This document shows, one piece after another, positions 16,140 through 25,115 of a DNA stretch of 64,000 nucleotides. The translations under genes were made by a program, and so were the position numbers. Numbering within the stretch: the first letter of the stretch is position 1; each line of letters opens with the position of its first letter. This DNA is from Tardiphaga robiniae (GTDB lineage Bacteria > Pseudomonadota > Alphaproteobacteria > Rhizobiales > Xanthobacteraceae): assembly GCF_013359755.1 (NCBI RefSeq), contig NZ_JABMCJ010000094.1:682001-746000 (forward strand), read 5' to 3'. The notes under the pieces are model-generated. The model did not search any database and had not been told where the DNA came from. It saw nothing but the letters and a program-made list of their open reading frames with translations.

Positions 16140-16916
16140 TCAGCCGCCGGCGGCGAAACTGTCGCTGCGCACGGCCCAGCCGGTGACGCGCGCCTCGATC
16201 AGCGAGAACACAATATACAAACCGACGCCCAATGCAGCCAGAATGAACAGGCCGGCGAACACCAGCGGCACATCGAAGCTGGACGACGCGATCATCATCA
16301 GATTGCCGATGCCGCGATTGGAGGCCACGGTCTCCGAAATCACCGTGCCGACGAAAGCCAGCGTCGCAGCCACCTTCAGGGAGGCGAAGAAGTACGGCAT
16401 GGTGCGCGGCAGGCCCACATTCCACAGAATTTCCAGCTTGGTCGCGCGCAGCGTCTTCATGACGTCCTGCAATTCGGGCTCTGTCGCCGCAAGGCCGGTG
16501 GCGACGTTCACGACGATCGGGAAGATGCACATGATCATCGCGGTGAGGATCGCCGGCACGGTGCCCGCGCCGAACCACAGTACGAAGATCGGCACCACCG
16601 CGACTTTCGGGATCGACGAGAATCCCACCAGCATCGGATAGGCGACGTCATAGGCCAGCTTCGACGAGCCGATCAGCATGCCCAAGAGAATGCCGATCGC
16701 GATGCCGAAGCCGAACCCAACCATGGTTGTGTACAGCGTCTGCAGCGCATGCGGCCAGATCGCGGGGAAGCGCGTCCAGAGCGTCGCAAGCACCTGGCTC
16801 GGCCGCGGCAGCACGATGTCCGAGACATGGAACATCAGGCACAACAATTCCCACAGTACGAAGAAGCCGATGATGCAGGCGGTGGACATGACCTGGCGGC
16901 GGAGGCGTTCGCTCAT
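16140..16916 (-). CDS. ABC transporter permease (SsuC/TauC family)
   Basis: 258 aa with six predicted membrane helices and the binding-protein-dependent permease EAA-type loop (MKTLRATKLEILWNVGLPRTMPY region). The N-terminal IVLPRPSQVLATLW stretch is typical of TauC/SsuC/NrtB permeases. Its ATG overlaps the stop of the ATPase gene (ATGA), so the two are coupled. It works with the two NMT1-like binding proteins of the same operon. Related systems carry taurine, sulfonates, nitrate, pyrimidines or hydantoins; the hydrolase neighbours favour an N-heterocycle or amide. Confidence 0.92.
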   Translation of the reverse strand: MSERLRRQVMSTACIIGFFVLWELLCLMFHVSDIVLPRPSQVLATLWTRFPAIWPHALQTLYTTMVGFGFGIAIGILLGMLIGSSKLAYDVAYPMLVGFSSIPKVAVVPIFVLWFGAGTVPAILTAMIMCIFPIVVNVATGLAATEPELQDVMKTLRATKLEILWNVGLPRTMPYFFASLKVAATLAFVGTVISETVASNRGIGNLMMIASSSFDVPLVFAGLFILAALGVGLYIVFSLIEARVTGWAVRSDSFAAGG

Positions 16917-17755
16917 GACACGATCTCCTGAACGGCGCGAGCCGCGACGATGCGCTGGCGCAGGCGCTGGGTCAGCGTGACGAAATCCGGCTCGAACGAC
17001 ACGTCGATGGTGCGCGGCCGCGCGAACGGCACCGCGCTGTCATCGACGATGCGGCCGGGCCGCGCCTGCATCACGCAGATGCGCGACGCCAGATAGGCGG
17101 CTTCCTTGAGGTCGTGGGTGACCAGCAGCACCGTCGGCCGCTTTTCGATCCAGAGATTTTGCATGATCTCCCATAATTCCTCGCGGGTGAATTGATCGAG
17201 CGCGCCGAATGGCTCGTCGAGCAGCAGCAAGGTCGGATCATGAATCAGCGCCCGGCACAGCGAGGCACGCTGCTGCATGCCGCCGGATAGCTGCCAGGGA
17301 AACTTGTCGCCGAAGCCGCCGAGGCCGACCTGCTTGAGCGATGCCTCGACGCGGTCGCGATATTCGGTCTTGCGCTTGGCGCGGAATGCTTCCTTGAACG
17401 GCGGCACGATCTTCAGTGGCAGCATGACATTGTCGCGGATATTCAGCCACGGCAGCAGCGTGGGGTTCTGGAACGCCATGCCGATGCGCGCTGCACCCGC
17501 GCCGATTTCGCGGCCGGCAACGAACACGTTGCCCTGGGTCGCATTCAGCGTGCCGGCCACCAGTTTCAGAATCGTCGACTTGCCGCAGCCGGACGGACCG
17601 ACCAGGGCGACGAATTCGCCCTTGTCTATGCGTAGCGACGTCTCGGCCAGCGCGGTCACGGCGTTCTTCGCCGTGCCGAAGGTGACGCGCACCTTTTCGA
17701 GCTCGATCACATTGTCCACAGCGCGGGGCTTTGGGTGGGCGAGCGGTGCGTTCAT
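16913..17755 (-). CDS. ABC transporter ATP-binding protein (SsuB/TauB/NrtD family)
   Basis: 280 aa from ATG 17755, 5 bp after the hydantoinase-like gene. Walker A is GPSGCGKST, the signature is LSGGMQQRASLCRAL, Walker B is LLLLDEPFGALD and the switch His is in VTHDLKEAAYLA. The sequence matches the TauB/SsuB/NrtD group. It overlaps the permease gene by 4 bp. Confidence 0.93.
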   Translation of the reverse strand: MNAPLAHPKPRAVDNVIELEKVRVTFGTAKNAVTALAETSLRIDKGEFVALVGPSGCGKSTILKLVAGTLNATQGNVFVAGREIGAGAARIGMAFQNPTLLPWLNIRDNVMLPLKIVPPFKEAFRAKRKTEYRDRVEASLKQVGLGGFGDKFPWQLSGGMQQRASLCRALIHDPTLLLLDEPFGALDQFTREELWEIMQNLWIEKRPTVLLVTHDLKEAAYLASRICVMQARPGRIVDDSAVPFARPRTIDVSFEPDFVTLTQRLRQRIVAARAVQEIVS

Positions 17756-17759
17756 GGGG

Positions 17760-19187
17760 TCAGGCTTTCTGCACGGAGGTGATCGCGGCCATGGTCGAGT
17801 CGGTGTTGGCCGGCATCGCCGGCGGCATCTGCTGGATCGCATGCACCGATTGCCCGGTGCCGCGGGCTTCCTCCTGCAAGATCCGGTCCTTCATCGCGAA
17901 GCGGCCGCGCACGATGGTATGGATCGGCAGTGCCGAGGCCTTGCGGCCATGCCACGGCGAAATCTTCGCGCGCGACTGGATCATCGCGTCGTCGACGGTC
18001 CATTCGCGCTTGAGGTCGACGATGGCGATATCGGCATCGGACCCCACCGTCAGCGTACCCTTGCGTGGATACAGGCCCCAGATTTTGGCGGGGCTCTCGG
18101 CGCTCCAGCGCACGTAGTCGTTGATGGTGGCGCGGCCCTTGTTGATCTCGGTCAGCATCAGCGGCATCTGGGTCTCGACGCCGGGAAAGCCGCAGTCGAC
18201 CGTCCAGATGTCCGGCCGGGTCTTCTCGTCCGGTGCATGTGGCGCATGGTCGGTGGCGATCATGTCGATCGTGCCATCCATCAGCGCGTTCCACAGCGGC
18301 TGCTGGTTGGGCTTCTCGCGCACCGGCGGATTGACGCGCACGACGCCGCCGAATTTTTCGTAATCGGTCTCCGACAGCAGCAGATATTGCGGGCAGGTCT
18401 CGCCGGTAATGTCGACGCCCCGCGCCTTGGCTTCGGCCAGCGGCTGCAATTCGGCAGCGGAGGAAATGTGCAGCACGTGGATGCGCGCACCGGTCCATTC
18501 GGCGAGGATCGCCGCGCGAGCGACGGCCTCGACGGCGACGACGGCGGGCCGTGCTGCCAGATGCGCGATCGGCTCGATGCGTCCGCTGGCACGCAGCCGC
18601 GCTTCGCGGCGCTCCATGATGGAATTGGTCTCGGCATGCAGCGAGATGCGCTTGCCGGTCGGGGCCACCACTTCGAAGGCTTCGAGCATCGCGCCGGTGG
18701 TCGGCGAGGGGATGCGGCCGAAAGTGTTGCCCATATAGAGCTTGAAGCCGATCACGCCGCCATCGATCAGCGCGTCGACATGTTCGATGCTGTCTTCGCC
18801 CAGCACCGCATAGAGCCCGTAGTCGACATAGGCTTTTGAGGAGGCGATCCTGTGCTTGTCGGCCAGTGCTTCCGCATTGTTGATGGTGGGCAGCGTGTTG
18901 GGCATGTCGAACACGGTGGTGACACCGCCAAAGGCCGCCGCGGCAGTGCCGCTGGCAAAGTCTTCCTTCTGCGGATAGCCGGGATCGCGGAAATGCACGT
19001 GCACGTCGATGGCGCCGGGCAGAATATGAAGGCCCGTGGCGTCGAGTATCTGCGTCGCCGGCGGCATCGCCTCCGGCGCGCCGATAGCGTGGATCACGCC
19101 GTCCTTGATGGCGATGCTGGCTTTGTAGCTTGCATCGGGCGATACGATGGTGCCGCCATTGATGACCAGATCGACCTTGTCGCTCAT
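17760..19187 (-). CDS. Dihydroorotase/hydantoinase/allantoinase-family cyclic amidohydrolase
   Basis: 475 aa from ATG 19187 (gaggggg ribosome site); the longer open frame upstream belongs to the SDR gene region. Metal ligands are visible: IDVHVHFRDPG near residue 60, the carboxylated-Lys motif GFKLYMGNTFG, SLHAETN, HVLHISSA, and ATDHAPH near residue 310. The family opens cyclic amide rings (dihydroorotate, hydantoin, dihydropyrimidine, allantoin). A biosynthetic dihydroorotase is unlikely because it sits inside a transporter operon with a SDR and other amidohydrolases. The ring it opens cannot be told from sequence alone. Confidence 0.88.
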   Translation of the reverse strand: MSDKVDLVINGGTIVSPDASYKASIAIKDGVIHAIGAPEAMPPATQILDATGLHILPGAIDVHVHFRDPGYPQKEDFASGTAAAAFGGVTTVFDMPNTLPTINNAEALADKHRIASSKAYVDYGLYAVLGEDSIEHVDALIDGGVIGFKLYMGNTFGRIPSPTTGAMLEAFEVVAPTGKRISLHAETNSIMERREARLRASGRIEPIAHLAARPAVVAVEAVARAAILAEWTGARIHVLHISSAAELQPLAEAKARGVDITGETCPQYLLLSETDYEKFGGVVRVNPPVREKPNQQPLWNALMDGTIDMIATDHAPHAPDEKTRPDIWTVDCGFPGVETQMPLMLTEINKGRATINDYVRWSAESPAKIWGLYPRKGTLTVGSDADIAIVDLKREWTVDDAMIQSRAKISPWHGRKASALPIHTIVRGRFAMKDRILQEEARGTGQSVHAIQQMPPAMPANTDSTMAAITSVQKA

Positions 19188-19201
19188 GTTAGCCCCCTCG
19201 C

Positions 19202-19996
19202 TCACAGCATGGCCCAACCGCCATCGACCGGCAGGTCGACGCCGGTAATCTGGCGCGAGACGTCGCTGGCCAGAAACAGGCAGGCATTGGCGACGTCGGC
19301 ATCGACGGTGACGCGGCGCAGCGCGTAGTCCATGGCGTGGCGCTCGGCGGCTTCTTGTTCGGTGATGCCGAGCTTCAGCGCCATGTCGCGGCAGACCTTG
19401 TCGCGAAAGCGCGGGCCATCGACCATGCCCGGCGCCACACAATTGACGTTGATGTTGTGCGGGCCGACCTCGAGCGCGAAGCTCTTGGTGATGCCGCGCA
19501 GACCCCATTTCGAGGCCGAGTAGGCCATGCGGCCGGCGCGGCCGCGCATGCCGAAGGTGCCGCCAACATTGACGATCTTGCCGTAGCGCTGATCGATCAT
19601 GGTCGGCAGTGCCGCGCGCATGGAGTGGAAGCAACCGTTCATATTGAGCGTGACGATCTCGTCGAACTCCTCCGGCGTGGTTTGCACCCCCGTTTTGCCG
19701 ATCGGGCCGGAGCCGCCGGCGACATTGACAAGAATGTCGATGCGCCCGCCGAACGCCGCCTTGGTCTTCTCCGCCGCGGCCTCGCATTGCTCGGACTTCG
19801 TGAGATCGCAGGGAATGACGATCACCTCGCCGCCCTTGGCTTTCACGTCGGCGGCAACCGGCTCGATCGCCGAGGTATCGCGGCCCAGCAGCGCCAGCTT
19901 GCAGCCTTGTTCGGCAAAGGCGTGGGTGATGGAGGCGCCCATACCCTTGGCGGGGCCTGTGATCATGACGACGCGGTTTTCGAGGGAGAGTTTCAT
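19202..19996 (-). CDS. Short-chain dehydrogenase/reductase
   Basis: 264 aa from ATG 19996. The Rossmann start has a slightly unusual glycine motif, VMITGPAKGMGASI (classic TGxxxGxG with Pro-Ala-Lys inserted in the x positions). NVAGG, Y159 and K163 in AYSASKWGL, and a C-terminal TGVDLPVDGGWAM are as in classical SDRs. It oxidises or reduces a hydroxyl or carbonyl with NAD(P). It lies between the hydantoinase-like gene and a binding-protein gene in the operon and may prepare or complete the ring substrate's degradation. The substrate is unknown. Confidence 0.9.
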   Translation of the reverse strand: MKLSLENRVVMITGPAKGMGASITHAFAEQGCKLALLGRDTSAIEPVAADVKAKGGEVIVIPCDLTKSEQCEAAAEKTKAAFGGRIDILVNVAGGSGPIGKTGVQTTPEEFDEIVTLNMNGCFHSMRAALPTMIDQRYGKIVNVGGTFGMRGRAGRMAYSASKWGLRGITKSFALEVGPHNINVNCVAPGMVDGPRFRDKVCRDMALKLGITEQEAAERHAMDYALRRVTVDADVANACLFLASDVSRQITGVDLPVDGGWAML

Positions 19997-20035
19997 GGTG
20001 TTATCTTTCTTGGGTCGTTTGCTCTGGCCCCTCGA

Positions 20036-20149
20036 CGTGATTGCAAGGAGCGAAGGCGACGCGGCAATCCAGAAGCCACGAACGGAAGAAGACTGGATTG
20101 TTTCGCCCAACGAATTGGCTTCGCCAATTCGCCAGGGCTCGCAATGACG
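20036..20149. repeat. Intergenic inverted-repeat element (gcaatccag type)
   Basis: The outer ends are near-inverted (CGTGATTGC at 20036-20044, GCAATGACG at 20141-20149). Inner arms are CAATCCAG at 20065-20072 and CTGGATTG at 20093-20100, and a perfect 9-bp stem CGAATTGGC/GCCAATTCG sits at 20111-20131. This form resembles dispersed palindromic elements common in Bradyrhizobium and Rhodopseudomonas genomes (from memory, not searched). It lies between the binding-protein and SDR genes of the operon and could form a strong RNA structure there. Confidence 0.7.
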
Positions 20150-20185
20150 GTTGAGAGGTGATGATGCTGAGGGGCCGGTTCGTCG

Positions 20186-21235
20186 TTACATCGCGGCCTT
20201 GATGGCCGTTGGGCGATCGGCCAGCGGCGGCATGAAGCTGCGGTCGAATACGTCGCCGACCTTCGGCGTGCGTGGCAGTTCCTTGGCGCTGACGAGAATA
20301 TCGATCGCCTTGCTCATGCGCTCGTCGCTGATGTCGCCATGGCCGATCTTTGAAATTTCCGGCGAAGTCATTTCGTCGGACAGCGTGGCTTCCAGGCGCG
20401 CGCGTTCGATGTCCGGCTTGATCAGCGGTTCGCGCTTTTGCACCGCCTCGATGGCGGCTTTGGGATCGGCCATGGCATCCTTGACGCCGCGGTTGAGCGC
20501 CTTGAGGAAGCCCTTCACGGCGTCAGGGTTTTCCTTGGCAAACTTGCGCGAGACAATGATGGCGTTGGAATACAGATCCATGCCGTAGTCCCCGAACTTG
20601 ATGAAGCGAATCTCTTTTTCAGGATCGATGCCGATCAGCCTGGCGCTGAAGCGGATGGTGGTGATGTAGCCGAACACGCCATCGACCTGATCCTTCATCA
20701 GCATCTGTTCGCGCAGATTCGGCTGCATGTTGGTAACCTCGACCTTGCTGCAGTCGATCTTGGTCGCCGCGCAGAGCGCCGGGAATAGCTTCAGCGCGCC
20801 GTCGTTGGCCGCACCGCCGAGCTTGCGTCCAACGAAATCGGCGGGGGTCTTGATTGGGCTGTCGGCTTTCACCGCCACCGTGAAGGGCGGGCGGTTGTAC
20901 ATCTGGTAGACGCCGATCGGCGCTTCGTCCGGCTTCCTGGCGGCAAGTTCGATCAGCGCATTGATGTCGCCGAACCCCATGTCATAGGCCCCGTTGGCGA
21001 CCTGCGGCACCGCCGCACCAGAGCCGTTACCCTGGTCGAAACTGACGTCGAGGCCTTCAGCTTTGAAGTAGCCGCGATCCTGCGCCAGGAAGAACATGCC
21101 CTGCGGACCTTCATACTTCCAGTTCAGGACCATCTTGATCTTGGTGTCGGCCTGCGCGGCGACAAACGATCCGGCCGTCACGATCAGTGTCAGGGCAAGC
21201 GTCTGCAATCCACGAAATGCATGGCGTCCGGTCAT
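20186..21235 (-). CDS. ABC transporter substrate-binding protein, NMT1/THI5-like (copy A)
   Basis: 349 aa from ATG 21235 (agga, 9 nt spacer). Residues 1-33 are a Sec signal (LQTLALTLIVTAGSFVAAQA). The mature part starts TKIKMVLNWKYEGPQGMFFLA, typical of the NMT1/SsuA/TauA group that binds pyrimidine-like, thiamine-precursor or sulfonate ligands. It is a clear paralogue of the binding protein at 22899-23951: shared signal peptide layout, SGAYD/NGAYD-GFGDINA, and C-terminal ELPRTPK-DVF. Its leader is duplicated as well. It uses the operon's single permease/ATPase pair. Confidence 0.9.
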   Translation of the reverse strand: MTGRHAFRGLQTLALTLIVTAGSFVAAQADTKIKMVLNWKYEGPQGMFFLAQDRGYFKAEGLDVSFDQGNGSGAAVPQVANGAYDMGFGDINALIELAARKPDEAPIGVYQMYNRPPFTVAVKADSPIKTPADFVGRKLGGAANDGALKLFPALCAATKIDCSKVEVTNMQPNLREQMLMKDQVDGVFGYITTIRFSARLIGIDPEKEIRFIKFGDYGMDLYSNAIIVSRKFAKENPDAVKGFLKALNRGVKDAMADPKAAIEAVQKREPLIKPDIERARLEATLSDEMTSPEISKIGHGDISDERMSKAIDILVSAKELPRTPKVGDVFDRSFMPPLADRPTAIKAAM

Positions 21236-21388
21236 CGGTGTGTTCCTGTTGAGAAGAGTGACACGATCGGCCGGTGGGGTGTCTCTGCCTGCGGCCGCCC
21301 TCAGGAACAAGTTAAGCCTATCCGAGTGCGCTTATCTGCTGCTATCTTTTTGCTTAAGCGGTGCAAAAAAGGCCTCACCGGAATCGTC
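21236..21388. repeat. Duplicated leader, copy A (upstream of binding protein A)
   Basis: This leader aligns over its length with 23952-24105. Shared blocks include ttcctgttg-GAA-GTGACA, CGGTGGG, CCTAT-CGAGTG, a 17-nt identical block ATCTGCTGCTATCTTTT (21334-21350), then CGGTG and AAAAAGGC-TCAC. In copy B the segment beyond this runs into a LysR start codon. In copy A it runs instead into the 3' end of the amidohydrolase gene. Confidence 0.85.
21334..21350. promoter_or_regulatory. Conserved leader block, copy A (candidate promoter/operator)
   Basis: ATCTGCTGCTATCTTTT is identical to the block at 24056-24072 and lies 99 nt before the binding protein A start (105 nt in the other copy). Just beyond it, CGGTG and CACCG around 21359-21380 form an inverted pair. 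Conservation in an otherwise diverged leader suggests a binding site, probably for the LysR regulator at 24118. Confidence 0.5.
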
Positions 21389-21441
21389 CAGATAACGCGT
21401 TGTTCGGGCCGGCGCTTGCAGAACCGCGAGGCGCAGGCACG

Positions 21442-22899
21442 TCAGCAGCATCCGCAAAAGCTTGCGGCAATCACGCCGTCGAGCGCGGCGAGGGCCCCAG
21501 CCAGGTTCTGGCCAGAGGGCAGGCCGGCGCGCATCTGAGCCAGAATCTCCTGCCGCGCGGCCGTGAAGTCGATCCCGGTGACATGCCCATCGCGTACGAT
21601 CGTGTGGCCTGCGACGATCACCTCCCGGATATGGCGCGCGGTTGCCCGCGAGAACAGGAGATTGATCGGGTCGAGATCGCTGCGCAGCGCGTCGTCGTTG
21701 AGGGCGTTCCAGTCCAGCAGCAGCATGTCCGCATCGGCGCGGTCGCGCAGGCCGCCGTCGCTGGCGATATTGGTGACGGCGAAGCGGCCGTTGCTTACGC
21801 TCTCATGCAGCGCCCGGTGGCGGGTCACGACTTGATCGAAACCGCTGCCGGAATGAAGCAGATGTGACAATCGGAGCTCGCGCAGTGCATCGTTGTCGTC
21901 GTCGAACGCTTTGCCGTCGATGCCGAGGGCGATCCGGCATCCGGCGGTCCACATCCGGGTCATGGGAGCCAGGCCCGAATGCAGATGCAGGTTGGAGCTG
22001 GTATTGACCGAAATGACGACGCCCCGTTCGGCCAGGAGTTCGAGTTCATCGGGCCGGGCCCAGACGCAATGTGCAAGCGTCAGCCGTGGGGACAGCAGAC
22101 CGATCTCGTCCAGCATGCGGACTATGCCGCCAGGATAATTGGCGTCACACCACTGGCGTTGATACTTGGTCTCGAGCAGATGCATGTGGACACGGCGGCC
22201 GGTCCGTACCGAGGCTTCGGCGATCGCCTGCAACAGCGCGTCGCTGCACCACTGCACGCCATTGGGACCATATTGCACATCGAATGTCGGGCCATCGGCG
22301 GCGGAGACAATCTCGTCCACTAGCGTCATGTAATCGCGCGGTGACAGCGGCGGACGCGTGAAGCGCTGCGCGATCTCCGCCCGAACGTCCGGCGGCAGCG
22401 CTGCTAGCACAGGTTCCGAGGGACCGTAGACCAAAGGATTGCGATCTCTCATTGCCACGGCGAGGCCGGTGCGCACGCCGACATCGCGTGCCGCGCGCGA
22501 TACCTCGGCCAGTTCGGTCGGCAGATCAGTGAAGCCCTGCACGCGGGTGTAATGGTTCATGACGATACCGGCACCGCCCAGCGCGCTGCTGGCGAACGCG
22601 ACGCAGGCCGCTACATAGGGATCGACCGCAGGAAACAATGCAAGATAGTGGATCCAGGACTCCAGCGGCTTGGCGTCGGCGCCGATGGAGCTGGTGCGGA
22701 CCGCGCGGCCGTGGTCGTGGGCATTGACCAAAGCGGGCAGCGCCATGATCGGCTCTGCTGCTTCAGTTGTCCGCGCGATCGACTGGATCTTGCCGTCGTG
22801 CAGCGCGATCACCTGCGCGCCGGGCATCGGCCCGTCCGGGCCAAGCACATGAGCGCAGGTGATGCGACGCGGCGCGCCGGTGGAGCGAGCCGTTGTCAT
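21442..22899 (-). CDS. Amidohydrolase (cytosine deaminase/AtzA-TrzN-like metallo-hydrolase)
   Basis: 485 aa. Metal-binding motifs: NAHDHG near residue 60, VHMHLLETKYQ, LAHCVWARPDE and LGIDGKAFDDDND, a layout of the aminohydrolase group that deaminates or dechlorinates N-heterocycles. The start codon overlaps the stop of binding protein B in a TAATG, so it is translationally coupled. The C-terminus ends in an unusual Cys-rich tail (SFCGCC). The HxH is present (H-D-H), so the enzyme is probably active. Predicted role: hydrolytic deamination or ring attack on the imported compound. The substrate is unknown. Confidence 0.85.
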   Translation of the reverse strand: MTTARSTGAPRRITCAHVLGPDGPMPGAQVIALHDGKIQSIARTTEAAEPIMALPALVNAHDHGRAVRTSSIGADAKPLESWIHYLALFPAVDPYVAACVAFASSALGGAGIVMNHYTRVQGFTDLPTELAEVSRAARDVGVRTGLAVAMRDRNPLVYGPSEPVLAALPPDVRAEIAQRFTRPPLSPRDYMTLVDEIVSAADGPTFDVQYGPNGVQWCSDALLQAIAEASVRTGRRVHMHLLETKYQRQWCDANYPGGIVRMLDEIGLLSPRLTLAHCVWARPDELELLAERGVVISVNTSSNLHLHSGLAPMTRMWTAGCRIALGIDGKAFDDDNDALRELRLSHLLHSGSGFDQVVTRHRALHESVSNGRFAVTNIASDGGLRDRADADMLLLDWNALNDDALRSDLDPINLLFSRATARHIREVIVAGHTIVRDGHVTGIDFTAARQEILAQMRAGLPSGQNLAGALAALDGVIAASFCGCC

Positions 22900-23951
22900 T
22901 ACGGCGCGATGGTCGGGGGCATCCGGTCGGGCTTGGCCGGCAGGAACGTATCGTTGAACACGTCGTCGGGCTTCGGTGTTCGCGGCAGTTCGAACGAGGT
23001 GACGATGGTGGAGATCGCTGAAGTCAGGCGCTTCTGATCGAGCTCGCCGAGGCCCAGATCCCCGACCTCTGGCGTGTTGATGAAGTTGTTGTAAACGTAG
23101 GTCAGGCGCCGCTTCTCGATATCCTTCTTGATCAGCGGTTCCTCGGTGGCGAGCAGGTCGATGGCGGCGTCCGGTGCCTGGACGGTTTCCTTGATCGAGC
23201 GGTTAATGGCGCGCAGCAGACCTTTCACCGCCTCCGGATGTTCCTTCAGCAGCTTCTGCGACACCATTACGCCGTTGGAATAGAGGTCGAGGCCGGAGTC
23301 AGAATAAAAATTCCAGCGGAAGTCCTTGTCGGGATCGACCTTGAGCGACACCAGGTTGAGATAGCTGGTGGCCGCGAACACCGCGATTGAATCCACTTGG
23401 CCCTGCAGCAGCATTTGTTCCTGCAAGGCCGGCGAAACCTGCAAAATGCTGATCTTGCTGTAATCGATGCCGTTCTGCTTGGCGAGCAGCGGCAGTAATT
23501 TCAGCGACGCACTGCCGGAAGGCGAGGCAAGCTTGGATCCCTCGAGATTCTTGAGAGTTTTGATCGGTCCATCCGCCTTGCTGAGCAGCGCGAACGGCGT
23601 CTTGTTATAGATCATGTAGACCATCACCGGTGCATCGTCCGGCTTGGTGGCGGCGTTCTGAATGATGGCGTTGATATCGCCGAAGCCGGCATCATAAGCG
23701 CCCGACATGATCCGCGTAACGGTCGCCGCCGAGCCTTCGCCCTGATCGATCGTCACGTCGAGATTTTCATCTTTGAAGTACCCTTTGGCCTTCGCCCAGT
23801 AGTACCACGCATGCAGACCCTGGATTTTCCAGTCGAGGGTAAACTTGATCTTGGTTGGCCCGGCAGCCTGGGCAAGAGTGAAGGTTCCTGCGGCTACGCC
23901 CAAGGCTAATACGAGCGTCAGTAATCCACGAAGTGCCCGGCGTTCGGTCAT
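22899..23951 (-). CDS. ABC transporter substrate-binding protein, NMT1/THI5-like (copy B)
   Basis: 350 aa. It has a Sec signal peptide at residues 1-30 (LLTLVLALGVAAGTFTLAQA), then TKIKFTLDWKIQGLHAWYYWA and GAYDAGFGDINAI as in binding protein A. It is the first gene of the operon, transcribed away from the LysR gene, and overlaps the next start by one base. Differences from copy A in the early ligand-contact region (LHAWYYWAKAKG against PQGMFFLAQDRG) suggest a different but related ligand. That is inference. Confidence 0.9.
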   Translation of the reverse strand: MTERRALRGLLTLVLALGVAAGTFTLAQAAGPTKIKFTLDWKIQGLHAWYYWAKAKGYFKDENLDVTIDQGEGSAATVTRIMSGAYDAGFGDINAIIQNAATKPDDAPVMVYMIYNKTPFALLSKADGPIKTLKNLEGSKLASPSGSASLKLLPLLAKQNGIDYSKISILQVSPALQEQMLLQGQVDSIAVFAATSYLNLVSLKVDPDKDFRWNFYSDSGLDLYSNGVMVSQKLLKEHPEAVKGLLRAINRSIKETVQAPDAAIDLLATEEPLIKKDIEKRRLTYVYNNFINTPEVGDLGLGELDQKRLTSAISTIVTSFELPRTPKPDDVFNDTFLPAKPDRMPPTIAP

Positions 23952-24105
23952 CGATGCTTTCCTGTTGCGAAACGTGACATGATTGGTCGGTGGGCGACGT
24001 CGCTCTCGCGACTATCTTCCTGTGTGAATCAGGATAGGCCTATTCGAGTGGTCACATCTGCTGCTATCTTTTCCAGTGACCGGTGTGAAAAAGGCATCAC
24101 TTGAG
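23952..24105. repeat. Duplicated leader, copy B (binding protein B / LysR divergent region)
   Basis: Matches 21236-21388 in order and spacing (see that entry). It contains a 10-bp palindrome ATAGGCCTAT at 24034-24043 that is broken in copy A, the identical 17-nt block at 24056-24072, and CGGTG at about 24081. It holds the divergent promoters of the eight-gene operon and the LysR gene. Confidence 0.85.
24056..24072. promoter_or_regulatory. Conserved leader block, copy B (candidate promoter/operator)
   Basis: ATCTGCTGCTATCTTTT, identical to 21334-21350, lies between the divergent operon and the LysR start codon, which is where a LysR regulator normally binds. Which strand's promoter it serves cannot be decided from sequence alone. 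Confidence 0.5.
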
Positions 24106-24117
24106 AAGCGAGGGGCA

Positions 24118-25026
24118 ATGAGGCATCTGAGGTTGCTGACCCATGTGGTCGAAGTGGCCCGCACCGGCTCGATCCGCCGCGCCGCGGAACTGCTCAACTT
24201 GACGCCTTCCGCGATGAACCGGCGCATTCAGGACCTCGAAGCCGAAATCGGCACGCCTTTGTTCGAGCGCCGGCCGCGGGGCGTGAAGCTGACCACCGCC
24301 GGCGAGATGTTCGTGCGCTACGCGCGCAGCCAGATTGCCGATGCCGAGCGGATGAGATCGCAGGTCGAGGATCTCAGAGGTCTGCGGCGCGGTCCGATCC
24401 AGATCGCCTGCAGCCAGGCGCTGGCGCTGGATTTTCTGGCGCTGCGCGTCGCTGCGTTCCAGAAGAAGCATCCGAAAGTGGTGTTCGACCTCAAGGTGAT
24501 GGATCACGAGCGCGCGCTGGCCGCGCTGGCGGCTTACGACGTCGATCTCGCTCTGGTGCATCGTCCGGCGATGTGGCCGTCACTGCGCGTCATCGCCAGC
24601 CTTCCCCAGCGTCTTGTGGTGATCACCCGCTCGGATCATCCGCTGGCAGCCAAGAAGATGCTGCGCCTCTCCGATTGTGTCGATTATCCCGCAGCCCTGC
24701 CAGATCGGACTTTGAGCGGCCGCCAGATTCTCGATGAGGTCACGACCCGGCGCGATCTGCGCCTCAACATGCTCGCGGAATCAAACTCCTTCGAGATGCT
24801 GCGCGGGCTGGTGTTCCGCTGCAACATGATCTCGTTCCAGATCGAGATCGGAGCCCCCACCGGGAACCTCGGCATGGGGCTGGTCGGCCGCCCGATCGAT
24901 ACCCGCGATGTGCCCACCGCCGATCTAGTGCTGTGCCAGCTGCGCGGTCGCACACTACCGGTAGCCGCGGCGACTTTCGCGGAAATCCTGATGAAGAGCC
25001 TGAGCGAGATGCGGGCAGGCACTTAG
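24118..25026 (+). CDS. LysR-family regulator of the hydrolase/transporter operon
   Basis: 302 aa from ATG 24118 (gagggg ribosome site 4-5 nt upstream); an in-frame GTG at 24076 lies inside the conserved leader and is less likely. The winged HTH is at residues 1-60 (HLRLLTHVVEVARTGSIRRA, then LNLTPSAMNRRIQDLE), followed by a substrate-binding-like effector domain (GPIQIACSQALALDFLALRV). It is divergent from the eight-gene operon, the classic position for its regulator. The effector is probably the imported compound or an intermediate. Confidence 0.92.
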   Translation: MRHLRLLTHVVEVARTGSIRRAAELLNLTPSAMNRRIQDLEAEIGTPLFERRPRGVKLTTAGEMFVRYARSQIADAERMRSQVEDLRGLRRGPIQIACSQALALDFLALRVAAFQKKHPKVVFDLKVMDHERALAALAAYDVDLALVHRPAMWPSLRVIASLPQRLVVITRSDHPLAAKKMLRLSDCVDYPAALPDRTLSGRQILDEVTTRRDLRLNMLAESNSFEMLRGLVFRCNMISFQIEIGAPTGNLGMGLVGRPIDTRDVPTADLVLCQLRGRTLPVAAATFAEILMKSLSEMRAGT

Positions 25027-25115
25027 CTCTTTTGCGGTGCAAAATATCCTTCCTTGGGCGGGCCGGATGCCTTATTGGCAGGCCTCAATCCCTGTCTCGT
25101 GAGCCCGTAGTTCCC

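Follow-up and report, generated by a model that had tools for sequence, protein, structure and literature searches.

Divergent promoter-operators of LysR-type regulators (LTTRs) span 50-60 bp and combine a T-N11-A dyad near -65, an ABS reaching to the -35 region and a divergent regulator gene (PMC8407307; for the arrangement of LysR-type sites see also PMC11739112). Spontaneous tandem duplication is reported to activate transferred genes in bacteria (PMC11111574). The gene cluster described here lies in a window of 64,000 nucleotides of Tardiphaga robiniae DNA, the whole stretch that was analysed. Its regulatory element resembles LTTR promoter-operators in having a predicted dyad near -65, a block near -35 and a divergent lysR gene; unlike in the usual arrangement, the cluster has this element twice, once at an internal promoter without an adjacent lysR. 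As in activation by tandem duplication or promoter capture, a gene (SBP-B) has been joined to a copy of another promoter; here, however, the captured piece includes a signal peptide, joined near the cleavage site, and the paralogue would stay under the regulator already controlling its operon. The cluster is also similar to NMT1/THI5-like (SsuA-type) ABC uptake operons with amidohydrolases, where binding protein, permease, ATPase and hydrolases are encoded beside one LysR gene, but it differs from these in having two old binding-protein paralogues, which appear to share a single permease/ATPase pair. A literature search found no paper on this operon. The cluster consists of the following parts:

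24118..25026, + strand: LysR-type regulator gene, the presumed controller (Pfam HTH_1 and LysR_substrate; ATG at 24118)
22899..23951, - strand: SBP-B gene, NMT1/THI5-like binding protein with an A-type signal peptide (about codons 1-29) and a B-type mature part
21442..22899, - strand: TRZ/ATZ-like amidohydrolase gene, relocated with SBP-B (relatives have the SBP-B/amidohydrolase pair at the 3' end of the operon)
20186..21235, - strand: SBP-A gene, NMT1/THI5-like binding protein (Pfam NMT1, 9e-43)
16140..19996, - strand: remainder of the operon, encoding an SDR, an allantoinase/dihydroorotase-like hydrolase, an ABC ATPase and an ABC permease (gene order conserved)

The regulator is identified as LysR-type by its domains (PF00126, 5.2e-21; PF03466, 3.4e-32), and its orthologues show 84-100% identity in most Tardiphaga/Bradyrhizobium loci, against about 55-62% elsewhere in the Hyphomicrobiales. 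Both binding proteins are NMT1/THI5-like, with PF09084 scores of 147.1 and 121.5 bits against a gathering score of 20.5. A formamidase-like gene is also found among the neighbours of the cluster. The allantoinase-type hydrolase lies above the NCBIfam AllB cut-off (362.6 versus 357.85 bits) and, going by this enzyme alone, the ligand of LysR is probably a cyclic ureide or a similar N-heterocycle.

The closest genomes are those of Tardiphaga robiniae Vaf-07, Bradyrhizobium sp. NFR13 and Tardiphaga sp. P9-11. Most other Hyphomicrobiales loci with both binding-protein genes show the order LysR <-> (isochorismatase) - SBP-A - SDR - cyclic amidohydrolase - ATPase - permease - SBP-B - amidohydrolase. 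The Tardiphaga relatives G011, G014 and G006 keep this usual order, with a formamidase-like gene before SBP-B, and in G008 the two halves of the operon are on separate contigs. SBP-B and the amidohydrolase gene were found between LysR and SBP-A only in the window and in G001, G002, G005 and G016. Because the rearranged order is confined to this clade of five genomes, the LysR-facing SBP-B is the derived state and SBP-A formerly faced LysR. The comparison shows an ancestral arrangement in which LysR was divergent from SBP-A / SDR / cyclic amidohydrolase / ABC ATPase / permease / (formamidase-like) / SBP-B / amidohydrolase, with the operator in the gap between LysR and SBP-A. In the Tardiphaga relative G017 (L060 13198-13553, 8842-13107), lysR is in fragments, SBP-A, SDR, cyclic amidohydrolase, ATPase and permease are absent beside it, and the formamidase-like gene, SBP-B and the amidohydrolase gene are retained with a weak, partial operator. 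The gap between SBP-A and SDR (window 19997-20185) looks repeat-like and varies in length among the five clade genomes.

Mature SBP-A and SBP-B sequences formed separate, fully supported clades, each with several genera. The two window proteins grouped with these multi-genus clades and not with each other, SBP-B falling within the B-type. SBP-A and SBP-B are ancient paralogues; in other genera, one of them stands at each end of the same operon. A distant genus as the source of SBP-B was considered and rejected: among 392 family genomes, the closest sequences outside the clade were Tardiphaga B-type proteins (up to 79%), the best match from another genus reached 73%, and no donor was seen. Between G011 and G008 (L055, L058/L059), the SBP-A leaders are 94%, the SBP-B proteins 98% and the mature SBP-A proteins only 82% identical, a pattern that suggests recombination within SBP-A.

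Alignment of leader A (intergenic region 21236-21441) with leader B (intergenic region 23952-24117), read on the operon strand, gave 111/155 identities (72%) for 21236-21390 and 23952-24117. The local alignment score of 132.5 lies far above those of 2000 dinucleotide shuffles (mean 27.5, maximum 48) and of other pieces of the window (maximum 52). The alignment of about 150 bp proposed in the initial annotation is thus borne out, and so are the details given with it: an identical 17-nt block, ATCTGCTGCTATCTTTT, at 21334-21350 in copy A and 24056-24072 in copy B, 99 nt from the start-codon base at 21235 and 105 nt from that at 23951, respectively; a copy B that faces the LysR gene; and a copy A that abuts the end of the amidohydrolase gene at 21442. 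A repeat (21165-21278 / 23881-23994, 73%) extends about 70 nt into both coding regions, over the signal peptides. The genes themselves are 60% identical at the nt level and 46% at the aa level, with an NG86 dS of about 1.

The signal peptide of the window SBP-B, MTERRALRGLLTLVLALGVAAG, is like the A-type MTGHHAFRGLRTLALALAVTAG of G011 and unlike the B-type MRRLLTSLVLASSLAIPFAARA. It scores 45-62 against A-type and no more than 10 against B-type signal peptides, and its leader scores 80-123 against A-type and no more than 0 against B-type leaders. From codon 31 onward, the window SBP-B matches the B-type protein of G011 at 8-10/10 residues per block, and its mature part shares 76-82% identity with Tardiphaga B-type proteins, compared with 43-45% for A-type. 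These comparisons show that the window SBP-B is a chimaera, in which the old mature part of SBP-B follows a leader and signal peptide copied from SBP-A, with the junction near the cleavage site. A maximum-likelihood tree of the leaders joined copy B, on a long branch, to copy A of the same clade (bootstrap 93), and FastTree placed it outside the Tardiphaga A leaders. Given its long branch, we have moderate confidence in the placement of copy B among the A leaders; since the two methods disagree, it is less certain when the copying took place than where the copy came from. Copy B was more distant than copy A from nearly every outgroup in all regions, so copy B has evolved faster.

In dozens of Hyphomicrobiales genomes, an independent search next to the orthologous LysR gene recovered a conserved promoter-operator of ~75 nt. 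Its consensus upstream of LysR orthologues from many genera is GAGTGATGCC-TTTTC-GGCACCACTCTAGCAAAAAATCAGCGGCAGATGGCA; the dyad includes TGCC-N5-GGCA, which corresponds to a T-N11-A box, and the AGCAGCAG/CAGCGGCAG block is conserved among the orthologous sites. The layout is that of LysR-type sites, with a GTGATGCC-N5-GGCA dyad near -65, a AGCAGCAGAT block near -35 and a -10-like TAnnnT at a fixed distance. TAnnnT begins 53-54 nt from the dyad centre in 44/55 sites and occurs within the tested offsets in 45/55, compared with a mean of 2.8 and a maximum of 9 in the shuffled control. This constant distance predicts the start site, and hence a dyad centre at about -65 and a AGCAGCAGAT block at about -35. 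Relative to the predicted start, the element has an RBS near -65 and an ABS reaching -35, as expected of an LTTR operator. An adjacent, divergent regulator gene accompanies copy B and the orthologous sites, but not copy A, which is internal.

An operator profile built from 24 orthologous sites, none of them from the window's clade, matched the two leaders and no other site in the window. With the Tardiphaga/Bradyrhizobium seeds left out, copy A scored 32.9, copy B 29.5 and the next match in the window 5.9 bits. In the 6.3-Mb genome, the top two matches scored 48.4 and 37.0 bits and the third 12.9 bits; the two leaders are its only confident sites, and no further convincing operator was found there. 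A TGCC-N5-GGCA palindrome at 25068-25080, between the LysR stop codon and an ABC-F gene, is kept in L066-L068 and scores 4.0 bits with the profile. The features of the two copies are:

21318..21380, - strand: operator copy A, before SBP-A and after the amidohydrolase gene (48.4 bits, E 8.6e-13)
21359..21378, - strand: RBS-like half of copy A, GTGAGGCC-TTTTT-TGCACCG (by comparison with the orthologous consensus)
21334..21350, - strand: 17-nt block of copy A, ABS/-35 region, exact match to copy B
21309..21314, - strand: predicted -10, TAACTT, of the internal SBP-A promoter (TAnnnT at the fixed offset)
24040..24102, - strand: operator copy B, between SBP-B and LysR (37.4 bits, E 2.3e-9)
24081..24100, - strand: RBS-like half of copy B, GTGATGCC-TTTTT-CACACCG, with the left arm intact and the right arm decayed relative to the orthologous consensus
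24056..24072, - strand: 17-nt block of copy B, ABS/-35 region, exact match to copy A; the block is conserved in the orthologous sites
24031..24036, - strand: predicted -10, TATCCT, of the SBP-B promoter (TAnnnT at the fixed offset)

In both copies, the block, spacing and -10 are preserved, as is the dyad's left arm or a close variant of it; transcription starts are predicted near 21302 for SBP-A and 24024 for SBP-B. The dyad is perfect in neither, and copy B is without most of the right arm. Formally, copy B has a T-N11-A box, T-GCCTTTTTCAC-A; in copy A, G takes the place of the strict T at the first position of the consensus register.

A site was detected in 48 of the 392 family genomes by a model-based scan with stricter filters, in which weak sites can be lost. 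All 30 family sites inspected adjoin a LysR orthologue, and the gene on the other side is nearly always SBP-A or the isochorismatase gene. Two sites each were present in seven of the 48 genomes, namely the five genomes of the window's clade, G011 and G008; the second site of the latter two is a B-type element before a distant SBP-B (27.0 and 29.5 bits, respectively). In Pigmentiphaga (L140 13340, L142 13352), SBP-B flanks LysR on the opposite side, and a separate CCGTTGCC-N5-GGCAACGG palindrome precedes it by 258-260 bp; in L142, a further palindrome precedes the isochorismatase gene. A LysR homologue of Polaromonas (50%; L127 9965 and 10948) has a matching palindrome on either side of the gene, and the rest of the operon is not nearby.

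We consider it probable that the two leaders represent two copies of one LysR-dependent promoter-operator, that the relocated SBP-B obtained the leader and signal peptide of SBP-A and that LysR would activate both promoters. The comparison of gene orders shows that SBP-B and the amidohydrolase gene ended up between LysR and SBP-A in the common ancestor of the five-genome Tardiphaga clade. The likeliest route would be that the operon was duplicated in tandem and then underwent two deletions; no intermediate of the rearrangement was found, and comparison of the 3' flanks failed to locate the breakpoint after the amidohydrolase gene. An identical end product would arise by gene conversion, or by insertion with target duplication, if SBP-B had moved with its own leader and the A copy had later overwritten leader and signal peptide. 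A site available for overwriting is plausible, since the SBP-B of G011 and G008 has the B-type operator described above, but this route requires one extra event and lacks an intermediate as well, and we regard it as conceivable, though unlikely.

Control of both promoters by LysR is well supported by the comparative sequence data and is the best reading because the leaders are copies of one cross-genus element and the internal SBP-A promoter retains a full operator; the earlier suggestion that this internal promoter may remain under LysR control is supported. Judged from the architecture, LysR with its ligand would activate both promoters by binding the dyad (near -65) and the block (near -35); SBP-B/amidohydrolase would then be transcribed from one start and SBP-A with the remaining operon genes from another, both under the same regulation. 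The distance from copy B to the start codon of lysR is about 15 nt, and binding there would let the protein repress its own gene as well. Alternatively, copy B could be a decaying relic, with LysR controlling only the internal SBP-A promoter and SBP-B expressed from another start. The lower score of copy B (37 versus 48 bits) and the loss of its right dyad arm agree with decay, but its left arm, 17-nt block, spacing and -10 are kept in 5/5 clade genomes and it is the only copy adjacent to LysR, which makes a relic improbable. As LysR binding to the element is predicted from sequence only, the element could also serve a different regulator or work in an RNA leader instead of as a LysR site; this is very improbable, considering its LysR-type architecture, the presence of an orthologue of this LysR next to it at every inspected locus and its location upstream of the predicted transcription start. 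Duplication of the whole unit, as claimed in the initial annotation, with leader and binding-protein gene copied together in this lineage and the proteins diverging afterwards, would fit the common Pfam family and the matching leaders and signal peptides but is hardly tenable and was rejected on gene order and trees, as both paralogues, in two old clades, already occupy opposite operon ends in other genera and the mature SBP-B of the window is so much closer to Tardiphaga B-type than to A-type proteins.

The initial annotation had also proposed selection on the site. The leaders are more similar than the proteins partly because the leader copy is younger, made long after the proteins had split; the argument from non-coding sequence kept after protein divergence is confounded for this reason and does not hold as stated. 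Copies A and B are identical at 53/70 positions of the element and 92/151 of the rest (p 0.02), so that the leader pair by itself points weakly to selection, and within the five clade species the element was no less variable than the rest of the leader, adding no further evidence. Selection on the site as such is supported independently by the conservation of the element sequence across genera.

We tentatively suggest that SBP-B repeatedly leaves the operon and that a separate LysR operator of the same kind goes with it each time, as seen in the leader copying of the window's clade, the separate B-type operator of G011 and G008 and, apparently, Pigmentiphaga.

The locus clearly exemplifies the capture of a promoter and a signal peptide under a regulator of a known kind. 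It offers a well-bounded case, with the prior order shown by outgroups, in which an old paralogue acquired a copied promoter and signal peptide together while its operon was rearranged, and it illustrates that leaders more similar than their genes are not in themselves evidence of selection. Comparing genomes has also defined the LysR operator, including a predicted -10 and start, so that control of both promoters by LysR can be tested directly. If the departures of SBP-B are true, selection would keep the second binding protein in the regulon wherever it is placed, and these loci would form a natural series for regulator-driven operon rearrangement.
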